Source: Impatiens glandulifera
Lineage: Eukaryota; Streptophyta; Magnoliopsida; Ericales; Balsaminaceae
NCBI RefSeq assembly: GCF_907164915.1
Contig: NC_061863.1
Location: 4,766,340 to 4,830,339, forward strand
Reading direction: 5' to 3'
Length of the DNA: 64,000 bases
Shown here: positions 45,618 to 48,629 of the stretch, in pieces
Position numbering within the stretch: position 1 is the stretch's first letter
Layout of the letters: each line of letters opens with the position of its first letter
Notes under the pieces: model-generated
The model's database searches: none
Seen by the model: only the letters and a program-made list of their open reading frames with translations
Told to the model about the DNA's origin: nothing
Program-made: the position numbers and the translations under genes

Positions 45618-46235
45618 GGGAAATTTGAGGAAATGACCCTAAAGAAGGGTCAAATTATGGATGGTGCGGGCCCATAATTTTAATAGCGCTGGTGACCCTA
45701 AAACTTTTTTCTAACGAAAATGCCCCTATTGCGTCACGCACCCTCCGGTTGCGTGACGCACCTGAGGACATTGTGAAAAGTCCACAATGCCCTTACTATA
45801 TAATTTAAAAAAATCCAGTTATTCCCATTTCTTTCTTTCTTGTTCTCTTTCTTCACTTCTCATTCTCCTCCTTCTTTCTAAAAAGACCACCCCCGACGAC
45901 GATCCCCGACGAAGACCCCGACGAAGACGGCGGAATCCCAACGAAGGAGATGTCCACTGCTATCATTCAGATTACAGATTACAGGTTACCACAAATGGAT
46001 CATTTTTGCATTTGTAGCTTTATTACAGGTTACCGCTGCTATCTTTTTGCATTTCAGATTCATTATATATTCATAATCTGTAAACTATATTCTTTCTCCT
46101 TCCTTTATTTCTCTCTTTCGACGCATTGTTTGTTAGGGTTTAGTGATTAGGGATTGAGTAGGTGAATGTCACCGTTGCGGCGGAATCCGGGTGCGTAACG
46201 CAGTTGCGTAACGCAGTTGCGTAACGCACCCCAGA

Positions 46236-46675
46236 CAACGTAACAACAAGAGCATCAAATGACTTTATGCAAGTATCGCGAGTGGCTAGACAGATGGTGG
46301 AGCGGTTTGGGTTCAGTAAGAAGATCGGCCAGATTGCCATTGGTGGAGGCGGTGGAAATCCCTTCTTGGTCAACAGGTGTTGATCAAAAATTCGAAATCC
46401 ATTGATTTGATGAAAATGTTATGTGTTAGTCTGTGTTGTGTTTGTGAATGCAGATGTCTTCACAGAAAGATTACTCGATGGCGACAGCAGATGTTGTGGA
46501 TGCAGAAGTGAGGGAGCTAGTGGATAAAGCATACTCGAGAGCAACACAAATAATCACAAGCCAAATTGACATTCTCCATAAGCTTGCTCAACTTCTCATA
46601 GAGAAAGAAACTATTGATGGTGAAGAGTTCATGAGCCTCTTTATTGATGGCAAAGATGAACTTTATGTTTCCTAA
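46236..46675 (+). pseudogene. Captured FtsH protease fragment (FtsH1/FtsH5-like C terminus)
   Basis: Two exons, 46236-46376 and 46454-46675, with their original intron (46377-46453, GT-AG), encode the last part of a thylakoid-type ATP-dependent zinc metalloprotease: ASNDFMQVSRVARQMVERFG in the first, then SSQKDYSMATADVVDAEVRE and IDILHKLAQLLIEKET to the natural stop. The AAA domain and the zinc site lie upstream and were not captured. A base is missing in the run before the intron (about 46368), so the two exons are out of frame. FtsH1/5 is suggested by the SNDFMQVSRVARQM wording; subgroup is my inference. The stop at 46673 keeps part of a 3' UTR. Confidence 0.85.
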
Positions 46676-46828
46676 TTCCCCTTTCTATGATTTTTCTGTA
46701 AGAATTGCATGTCACCCTAAAACAATACATTTGCATATATACATATATAAACACAACAATTGTTCTGTCAAATCCAACAACAACAATAACATTAACAAGA
46801 AGAAGAATCAAATAAAATAGAAAAAATG

Positions 46829-47925
46829 TCATCTGCCAGTTCCTCCTCCTTTGTGCTTCTTATCTTCTAGGGTAGCAGCTTCGTTAAGCATATCGACTGC
46901 ATCTTTGTGCATGTCCAGCTTCGCAAGGGCAACCGCCTGCATGTAAAAAGCAGTCGACCAATCGGGGAGGACACACTGGGCTTGCATGGCATCTCGGAGA
47001 GCTGCATCAGGTTGCTCGCACATAAGATAACATAGACTTCGTCTTCCATATACTGTTGGGGAAATCATCATTCCCACATCTATGAACTGCAACATTTTTA
47101 TAACCATAATCAAATTATAAACAACCAAACATACATATATTACATACCAAAATGTTTTATTTTTATATACCTGAGAATAACAATCTATAGCAGTTCTAAA
47201 ATCCTTATCACGGAATGCCAAGTCACCACGCTTCCTTGCATCCAGCATGTCTTTCATCTGTTGTGTTCATTCTTGAAAAGAAAGCTGGAACAAATCAAAT
47301 AAACAAATAAGCGCTTGTGTTTGCACCAAAATGGCATTAGCAAAAAAGAATACCTCATTAGTTCATTCGTCGTCTTTATAGTGAGTTGTTACCAAGATTT
47401 GATGGATGGCTGTGAGGTCCATTCTAATAGAGTGAAAGAAAGACAATAGACTCACATCAGGTTTATTCTGCAATGGGGCAAGGGTAGCAACCAGGTCTCT
47501 TGTGTTCTCTTGGTTCATACTGCAAACATTTTGAAGCTATATTAATAACAACAGTAGCCTCTTCAGTTGAAAAGTTTCCTTCCAAGTGTGAATCAATCAA
47601 AAGAACAATGTTTTTCCCACGCATCATATCAAGCGCCTGCATTAGGACAAAGTTTGTTAATAAAGAATGCAATTTTAATTTTGTCTCAAATTTCTCAATT
47701 TAAAGGTCTAGGCACCAACCTACATGAGTGAATTACTCATTTAATATAAAATATTCTACACTTGGTATAAACAATGTTTGCAATTATTAGAACTTGTTTT
47801 TATGGACTACTTTGTTAATACAACCTAAAAAAACATGGGGAAGCACTTACATGACTTGGTGGGATGTGTTTCCCACTGAGAAGATTCAGAAGCACTGTTC
47901 CAAAGCTAAACATGACACTTTCTAA
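46829..47925 (-). pseudogene. Captured BSK (brassinosteroid-signalling kinase) C-terminal fragment
   Basis: Minus-strand exons about 47921-47851, 47636-47354, 47284-47171 and 47086-46829, with GT-AG introns, encode the end of the kinase domain (FSFGTVLLNLLSGKHIPPSH, LDMMRGKNIVLLIDSHLEG, CLQYEPRE) and the TPR region (KRGDLAFRDKDFRTAIDCYS, DAALRDAMQAQCVLPDWSTA) to the natural stop. BSKs are plasma-membrane receptor-like cytoplasmic kinases acting downstream of BRI1. Lesions: TGA in place of Trp near 47272, a TGA near 47363, and a small deletion with frameshift near 47510. The kinase core is missing. The upstream stretch 47930-48071 may be more captured DNA but I do not recognise it. Confidence 0.85.
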
Positions 47926-48629
47926 AACAAACAAACAAATAAATAAATTTCCTTTCTTGGACGATTTCCAGATAACTAAAGATATCAAATCGAACTGGAT
48001 GGATTAACTAACTCTACAAGAAACACATTTGTTTGTTACCTGAATTGCTGGAAGGGATTTGAGCTGAATCTTGCGTGACGCATCTTGCGTGACGCATCCT
48101 GCGTGACGCATCCAATCAACCAACCAATCAACCTGCATTCAACGAATCAGGGCGAATCAATGACGTTCTGTAAAGGAAATCAACACAAACAATCATATAT
48201 AAACGAAATAAACACAAAATATAAACGAATATAGTGGAAATTTTTGCTTCGGCCGTCGTCGTTCGCCGTTGGAGCCGCAGTTCGTCGTTGGAAGTTCTTC
48301 GCAGCTATAGGCCATTGAATATGGTGGAATGGTCGACGATGCCTCTTCGATTGGTTCTTCGGCGATGAAGAAGAAGAGAAAGTCTTCTCCGCCACCATTA
48401 GGGTTCACGGCGGAGAAGACGGGAAAAAATGGATGAGAGAGAAAATGAATCGAAAATGAAAAAAAAATTATGACTTTATAGGGTTTAGGGTGAGTCACGC
48501 ATCTGGAGGGTGCGTCACGCAGAGGTATAATGGTCATTAAAAATTTTGGAGGTCACCAGCGCTATTAAAATTATGGGTCCGCATCATCCGTAATTAGGCC
48601 ACTCTTTAGAGTCATTTCCTCAAATTTCC

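Follow-up and report, generated by a model that had tools for sequence, protein, structure and literature searches.

A multicopy Pack-MULE family of Impatiens glandulifera whose FtsH/BSK cargo was probably copied once from adjoining host genes

The 3,012-bp element at positions 45618–48629 of a 64,000-nt stretch of Impatiens glandulifera DNA (genome G000, 654 Mb; the whole stretch is referred to as the window) very probably belongs to a multicopy Pack-MULE family, as a copy that is decayed and non-autonomous. In this family, a segment with parts of an FtsH and a BSK gene was copied once between MULE ends; here it is joined to a piece of an RLCK gene. The element is of an ordinary kind, but its family documents the gain and shuffling of cargo with unusual completeness. 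Our analysis supports an earlier note on this DNA in reading the element as a Pack-MULE of a Ulp1-type MULE family with 3′ pieces of FtsH and BSK.

Structure of the Pack-MULE

The element has long terminal inverted repeats. Comparison of the flanks revealed an unstranded target-site duplication, TCCTTTAAA, at 45609–45617 on the left and, as a perfect 9-bp match, at 48630–48638 on the right, which confirms the 3.0-kb element with perfect 9-bp duplication described before; a length of 10 bp is also possible, with one terminal C counted as part of the duplication. The inverted arms (45619–45727 and 48521–48629; 109 nt) are 82% complementary. The left end (45618–46228, + strand; terminal inverted repeat at about 45618–45762) is homologous to the MURA-side end of a transposase-bearing MULE located 12 kb away, and the right end (48111–48629, + strand; terminal inverted repeat at about 48489–48629) to the left end of the same MULE, on its DUF1985/Ulp1 side (25067–25651). 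Sequence comparison within the window aligned element positions 1–345 and 471–609 to MULE positions 33464 to 32982, leaving a stretch of 125 bp (45963–46087) within the left end without counterpart in the MULE, and the right 554 bp (element 2459–3012) to 25067–25651. The earlier claim that the ends match this Ulp1-bearing MULE is thus borne out, and the terminal inverted repeats did not prove unrelated to those at 25068/33464.

The cargo is bracketed by two unstranded inner arrays, one of three TGCGTAACGCA units (46192–46228), immediately 5′ of the cargo, and one of three TGCGTGACGCA units on the right (48072–48110). It begins with a 3′ piece of an FtsH gene on the + strand, comprising exon A (46233–46376), in which one base is deleted relative to the parent, causing a frameshift, and the last exon (46454–46675), which ends with the stop codon TAA. 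The piece matches Peptidase_M41 on the + strand (E 2.4e-30, with the typed piece carrying XX at the frameshift as query). On the − strand follows a 3′ piece of a BSK1-like gene (46829–47923), which includes the end of the kinase domain and the TPR exons and matches TPR_BSK1_C on the − strand (E 4.7e-36). It contains two in-frame TGA codons (47363–47365 and 47267–47269, − strand) and lacks about 350 bp of parent sequence near 47427 (parent positions 5034–5385); the match to the parent ends at 5890. The two domain matches corroborate the earlier description of convergent FtsH and BSK 3′ pieces, each with its own stop. The last part of the cargo (47924–48071, − strand) corresponds to the 5′ end of a PBL2/BIK1-like RLCK, probably a first-exon piece plus intron.

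MULE-matching sequence is restricted to the ends and arrays, and the element has no transposase of its own. It shares its terminal inverted repeats with a transposase-bearing MULE, is flanked by a duplication within the range of 8–10 bp, and has an external host parent for FtsH/BSK, all of which characterize a Pack-MULE. The window copy is an internally deleted carrier of pseudogenes, and its gene fragments have no protein function; they are broken, because FtsH carries the 1-bp deletion and BSK the two TGA stops.

The neighbouring MULE is a diverged relative rather than the probable parent

The related MULE occupies 25066–33464 with the target duplication TAGGGAAG. MURA is spread over two ORFs on the − strand (30947–32251 and 30561–31037), with matches to the MULE (E 9.2e-24), MuDR-type DNA-binding, and SWIM domains, while the + strand encodes DUF1985 (26464–26871; E 6.5e-14) and pieces of Ulp1 (Peptidase_C48; about 28796–29410; E 2.7e-13), the frame of which is broken by a stop. 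Both genes read inward from the nearer end. MURA with its three domains and the second gene with DUF1985 and Ulp1 (C48) correspond to the KI/VANDAL type, but the degenerate or absent terminal inverted repeats of that type were not found, as the two ends are 88% identical over 146 bp. Because of these long repeats, we filed the MULE as a DUF1985/Ulp1 MULE only and not as a VANDAL.

The window Pack-MULE is 88.3% (left end) and 87.2% (right end) identical to this MULE, versus up to 92.8% and 95.4%, respectively, to other FtsH/BSK copies. The suggestion that the neighbour was the likely parent had to be given up, since other copies are closer and its Ulp1 is interrupted by a stop; the MULE is a diverged relative, one lineage among several, and not the parent. 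Within it, a 56-bp left-subterminal piece (25408–25463) shows 89% identity to a stretch of the DUF1985/Ulp1 region of the same MULE (27196–27251), perhaps a small internal self-capture.

Further features were observed elsewhere in the window. Between the two elements lie the ORFs of a methionyl-tRNA synthetase-like host gene (39700–43336), with a tRNA-synt_1g match at 42881–43336 (E 8.5e-45). A short-period tandem repeat of about 1 kb, taken from the ORF list, is located at 55617–56694 and accounts for three long, overlapping, meaningless ORFs on the − strand (GIGI..., YWYW..., and VLVL...). ORFs at 6443–8818, judged by eye, resemble a hAT-type transposase.

FtsH and BSK adjoin at a single host locus

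Among the scored candidates of the genome search, L009 (C3:4506500-4516400) was the sole cargo-bearing place without MULE ends, with no match of ≥ 60 bp to either end in the 9.9 kb read. It encodes an intact FtsH (703 aa after manual joining of the exons, with no internal stop) and, on the opposite strand, BSK1-like coding stretches that extend, in unspliced reading, from the start codon through the last exon. The genes are arranged tail-to-tail with their stops 152 bp apart. The parent genes of FtsH and BSK, which the earlier note had asked for, were therefore found together on C3. Two copies, L011 and L014, each match parent positions 3846–6519, including the 152-bp intergenic stretch, in a single alignment. 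This contiguous match to L009 shows that the adjoining FtsH and BSK genes were copied in one piece; the cargo is one contiguous host segment across both 3′ ends. The view that two unrelated genes had been combined within the element is not tenable, as they adjoin at L009 as ordinary host genes, without a MULE end within the 9.9 kb read, which is the arrangement that the earlier note itself had named as refuting its view.

The FtsH-side cargo starts at parent position 3846 in all 13 copies that keep the left junction, which is lost in the other three of 16. The breakpoint reads CCCCAGAC/AACG, with base changes in five of the 13 (L013, L015, L016, L017, and L021). On the BSK side, the cargo extends to parent position 6635 in five copies, so that the full-length captured segment comprises 2.79 kb. 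A left junction at the same base in 13/13 copies points to a single capture followed by transposition.

Copies with interchanged cargo

Using the element for the genome search, FtsH/BSK cargo was found at at least 16 places, the window copy included; all 16 were read, and the number is a lower bound, since 40 of 1,394 first-look candidates were scored. Target duplications are exact and all different in 13 copies, have one mismatch in two, and are missing in one (L014). Because the duplications differ, each copy is best read as its own insertion. Cargo identity ranges from 95.2 to 99.8% among copies and from 95.7 to 96.8% to the parent.

Ten of the 16 copies run on from FtsH/BSK into RLCK and six into another segment, D, which is present at many further places; two of these were read (L043 and L044) and have the same ends. 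In four copies (L019, L020, L022, and L024), the cargo additionally includes the 3′ part of a patellin gene with its parent on C8 (98% over 844 bp). At least three cargo combinations were thus identified, i.e., FtsH/BSK with RLCK, FtsH/BSK with D, and patellin with FtsH/BSK and D, in agreement with the earlier proposal to look for copies with different cargo. The sampled elements thus share the same ends, with the cargo interchanged between them.

The RLCK piece at 47924–48071 also occurs in a second family of Pack-MULEs, which has the same ends. An assignment to BSK was ruled out, as the piece has no match in the parent L009 and is present in RLCK-bearing elements. Over its last 109 bp, identity to part of the RLCK cargo of three elements of the second family (L029–L031) is 99.1%. 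In L030, the RLCK gene reads PSPRSESEILSSTHAKAFSYNELRNATRNFRPDS... and matches PBL2 (E 4e-18) and BIK1 (E 6e-18), and the 3′ end of a UBC gene matches 2aak (E 6e-15). RLCK cargo without FtsH/BSK was found at 19 further places, nine of which were read. All nine, L030 itself being one of them, match the UBC/RLCK cargo of L030; the left end is present in all nine (partial in L037) and the right end in eight (not in L035). A parent of the RLCK piece was not identified, and L038 carries a diverged RLCK gene. The earlier designation as a chimera consequently stands in part: the combination of FtsH and BSK does not make the element one, but the RLCK piece, which had been missed, does, as a third gene joined to the FtsH/BSK segment.

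Several relatives deserve mention in their own right. In L033, the UBC and RLCK pieces are joined to a piece of a papain-type cysteine protease on the − strand, which we take to be cathepsin B-like, and the right junction is the same in L032 and L034. The RLCK cargo of L035 is split by about 9 kb between L035 and G000:C751:143075, perhaps by a later insertion. L045 (G000:C2:58138200-58143100) is a Pack-MULE with the same ends that contains a DNA polymerase phi-like piece (− strand; weak match) and a + strand piece without assigned family, and MULE sequence carries on past its left array.

Motif arrays, cargo junctions, and cargo orientation

Both element ends align to the MULE up to a tandem array of TGCGTNACGCA. 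Allowing one mismatch, 19 such units were counted in the MULE. All of them lie outside its coding intervals, which were delimited approximately and take up 5,098 of its 8,399 bp, and the rest of the window (52,589 bp apart from the two elements) is free of them; a Markov control yielded a mean of 0.08 (100 sequences). For one MULE copy and with approximate coding intervals, the restriction of tandem motif arrays to noncoding DNA that is typical of VANC targets was therefore observed. Of the 27 Pack-MULEs for which both ends were read, 26 have at least one unit within one mismatch at each of the two inner positions; the exception, L037, has no right inner unit of this quality. In total, 28 Pack-MULEs were read, and L035 (no right end within the stretch read) and L037 (incomplete left end) were left out of the identity, tree, and junction comparisons.

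The sequence beside the innermost unit was compared for the remaining 26 Pack-MULEs and the MULE. On the left side, five junction classes were distinguished (FtsH, patellin, UBC, the AAA cargo of L043/L044, and L045), and on the right side six (RLCK, the shorter RLCK in L011, the shorter RLCK in L021, the cargo of L032–L034, L045, and D). Ten of the 11 classes lie within about 12 bp of a TGCGTNACGCA unit, the nearest units for D being degenerate; the exception is the left side of L045, which continues into MULE sequence. As positions near a unit make up 4.7–5.8% of the MULE interior, the binomial probability for 10/11 is 5e-13 to 5e-12, a value to be read with the possible non-independence of the classes, because a single array-reduced ancestral element would give the same picture, and with the selection of the elements by similarity to array-containing ends. 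All eight cargo pieces for which a family or structure match was obtained are oriented inward, as seen from the end closer to them (FtsH, patellin, UBC, and AAA from the left on the + strand; BSK, RLCK, the papain-type protease, and DNA polymerase phi from the right on the − strand). This is suggestive of an inward orientation bias, given that the score for polymerase phi falls short of Pfam's cut-off and that FtsH/BSK, perhaps also UBC/RLCK, represent one event. The left piece of L045, with two matches below this cut-off and no others, and a piece of L044 without family match, presumably 'MOS1-like', were not counted.

By analogy, the arrays may be anti-silencing targets. VANC anti-silencing proteins contain DUF1985 and bind short tandem motifs in noncoding VANDAL DNA (PMC5735166 and PMC10398659), and according to PMC13317346, relatives of VANC that carry Ulp1 act on motifs of elements related to their own. 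The TGCGTNACGCA arrays would then be putative binding sites of the family's DUF1985/Ulp1 protein, and derivatives retaining them would escape silencing and spread. We consider this possible, though not probable. The 19 units confined to noncoding MULE DNA, the units at both inner positions of 26 Pack-MULEs, and the precedent of VANC binding (PMC5735166) are consistent with it; the missing right unit in L037, the selection of the sampled elements by similarity to ends that contain arrays, and the long terminal inverted repeats of the MULE, unlike those of VANDALs, argue against it, as does a CpG-protection test that failed its control. In this test, C>T/G>A changes were found at 85 of 730 copy positions at parent CpG letters versus 154 of 5,657 at other C/G, and at 11/880 to 25/1,000 positions in array units, depending on the threshold. 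With a majority consensus as control, CpG decay in cargo and flanks amounted to 2.7–5.3% and did not exceed that at other C/G, which places most of the cargo CpG loss on the shared stem. The contrast between array and cargo was accordingly dismissed as evidence of protection.

Divergence of the ends was analyzed for the 16 copies (120 pairs). Mean transversion divergence is 4.8% for the left end, 3.9% for the right end, and 1.0% for the cargo, and trees with the FtsH/BSK ends as one clade were rejected (AU p 2.7e-6 left and 1.1e-5 right). The ends are thus mosaic. Between groups of FtsH/BSK copies, left-end divergence reaches 10–28% in the outermost 100 bp and 2–7% beside the array. Since divergence peaks in the outermost 100 bp, exchange or conversion mainly in the terminal inverted repeats is indicated, and exchange of ends at the arrays was dropped as a reading. 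A more general model, in which many balsam Pack-MULEs are built on a single reusable chassis that has a terminal inverted repeat, a stretch of subterminal sequence, and a TGCGTNACGCA array on either side, host DNA is exchanged between the arrays, the arrays serve both as template-switch site and as anti-silencing label for the DUF1985/Ulp1 protein, and the cargo lies sense-inward, seems rather unlikely to us as a whole.

Origin of the cargo

Very probably, the tail-to-tail 3′ parts of FtsH and BSK on C3 were copied once between MULE ends; the right side of the segment is joined to the RLCK 5′ part in the window copy and nine others, and the cargo has spread to at least 16 sites while internal pieces were lost. 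Copying may have occurred by gap repair or by replication with template switching at short matches, such as AGAC at the left and CTT at the BSK/RLCK junction; this mechanism is deduced from the junctions alone, and matches of 3–4 bp may be due to chance. The transposase probably comes in trans from intact relatives that encode MURA; against this, the MURA matches of the window MULE are spread over two ORFs, and its Ulp1 is broken. The combination with RLCK may have arisen by capture into an RLCK element or by recombination or fusion of two elements.

It is doubtful that cargo was generally gained by neighbour fusion, whereby two gene-flanking MULEs move as a unit after decay of their inner ends. 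Between the patellin cargo and FtsH/BSK, L024 contains another left-end fragment with its array, which makes this copy look more like a fusion of neighbouring elements. L016 (G000:C2:50854747-50859017) is separated by 17 bp from another element with the same right end in opposite orientation, the neighbouring arrangement that fusion models require. In the 9.9 kb read at the parent locus, in contrast, no match of ≥ 60 bp to either end was found, and most cargo junctions are located at arrays rather than at decayed inner termini.

A functional truncated protein from the FtsH or BSK pieces in some copies is very unlikely. Both FtsH exons are at least partly preserved in twelve copies; in four of these (L011, L012, L014, and L018), both are nearly complete, without stop or indel. 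Their uncorrected pN/pS relative to the parent, computed for these 4 of 16 copies, is 0.62, 0.20, 0.57, and 0.28, respectively; each of the four carries 10–16 substitutions. The window copy and six others (L010, L013, L016, L017, L021, and L023) carry the 1-base deletion in exon A, and L021 and L023 have deletions in exon B as well. P0003, a 110-aa FTSH-like protein of Impatiens glandulifera at NCBI, matches L018 (G000:C1:30157253-30160573) by 100% over the last exon; it is apparently a transposon-carried gene piece annotated as a gene. We give practically no credence to a chimera built from separate FtsH and BSK host loci, which two different genes within one element might suggest, as it is refuted by the contiguous match of L011 and L014 to L009.

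Single copying of adjoining 3′ ends thus remains the preferred reading. As the donor locus and the breakpoints can be seen in one genome together with no fewer than three cargo combinations and a second family that shares RLCK, the order of capture and template switching become readable from junctions. Should the arrays prove to be anti-silencing targets, escape of transposons from silencing would be linked to the multiplication of host gene fragments.

Comparison with known systems

Pack-MULEs were reportedly treated by Jiang et al. in 2004, and chimeric Pack-MULEs are known from rice. No paper turned up in a literature search on FtsH together with BSK8 and candidate genes. Literature on Pack-MULEs (Ulp1, breakpoints, orientation, and gap repair), judged by title and start of the abstract and with subscription papers mostly outside coverage, included none on Impatiens elements or array-bounded cargo. 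Pack-MULEs and Ulp1-bearing MULEs are reviewed in PMC13317346, and one-third of Pack-MULEs are multicopy according to PMC8277862. The balsam element resembles Pack-MULEs in being non-autonomous and multicopy, with terminal inverted repeats, a 9-bp duplication, and host pieces with a distant parent that are mostly pseudogenes. It differs in that two convergent genes had their 3′ ends captured as a single segment, that tandem motif arrays bracket its cargo, and that several combinations of cargo are found among its relatives in the genome.

The window MULE is similar to KAONASHI (KI/KIU) and other Ulp1-bearing MULEs (PMC13317346 and PMC2528002) in its combination of MURA with a DUF1985/Ulp1 gene; both texts treat the Ulp1 domain itself as captured cargo. 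Unlike the KI-MULEs of Arabidopsis, described there as non-TIR, it has similar ends over 146 bp. There is a likeness to VANDAL/VANC (PMC5735166 and PMC10398659) in the DUF1985 protein and the short tandem motifs in noncoding DNA, whereas the motif TGCGTNACGCA differs from those of VANC21 (YAGTATTAY) and VANC6 (AGTTGTMC), the terminal inverted repeats are long, and our comparison draws on sequence. Fused or serial cargo and short junction matches are shared with the Pack-TYPE fusion model (PMC8903248) and the gap-filling model of animal Pack-TIR elements (PMC8277862), but in contrast to both models, the balsam junctions are located at tandem arrays in 10/11 classes.
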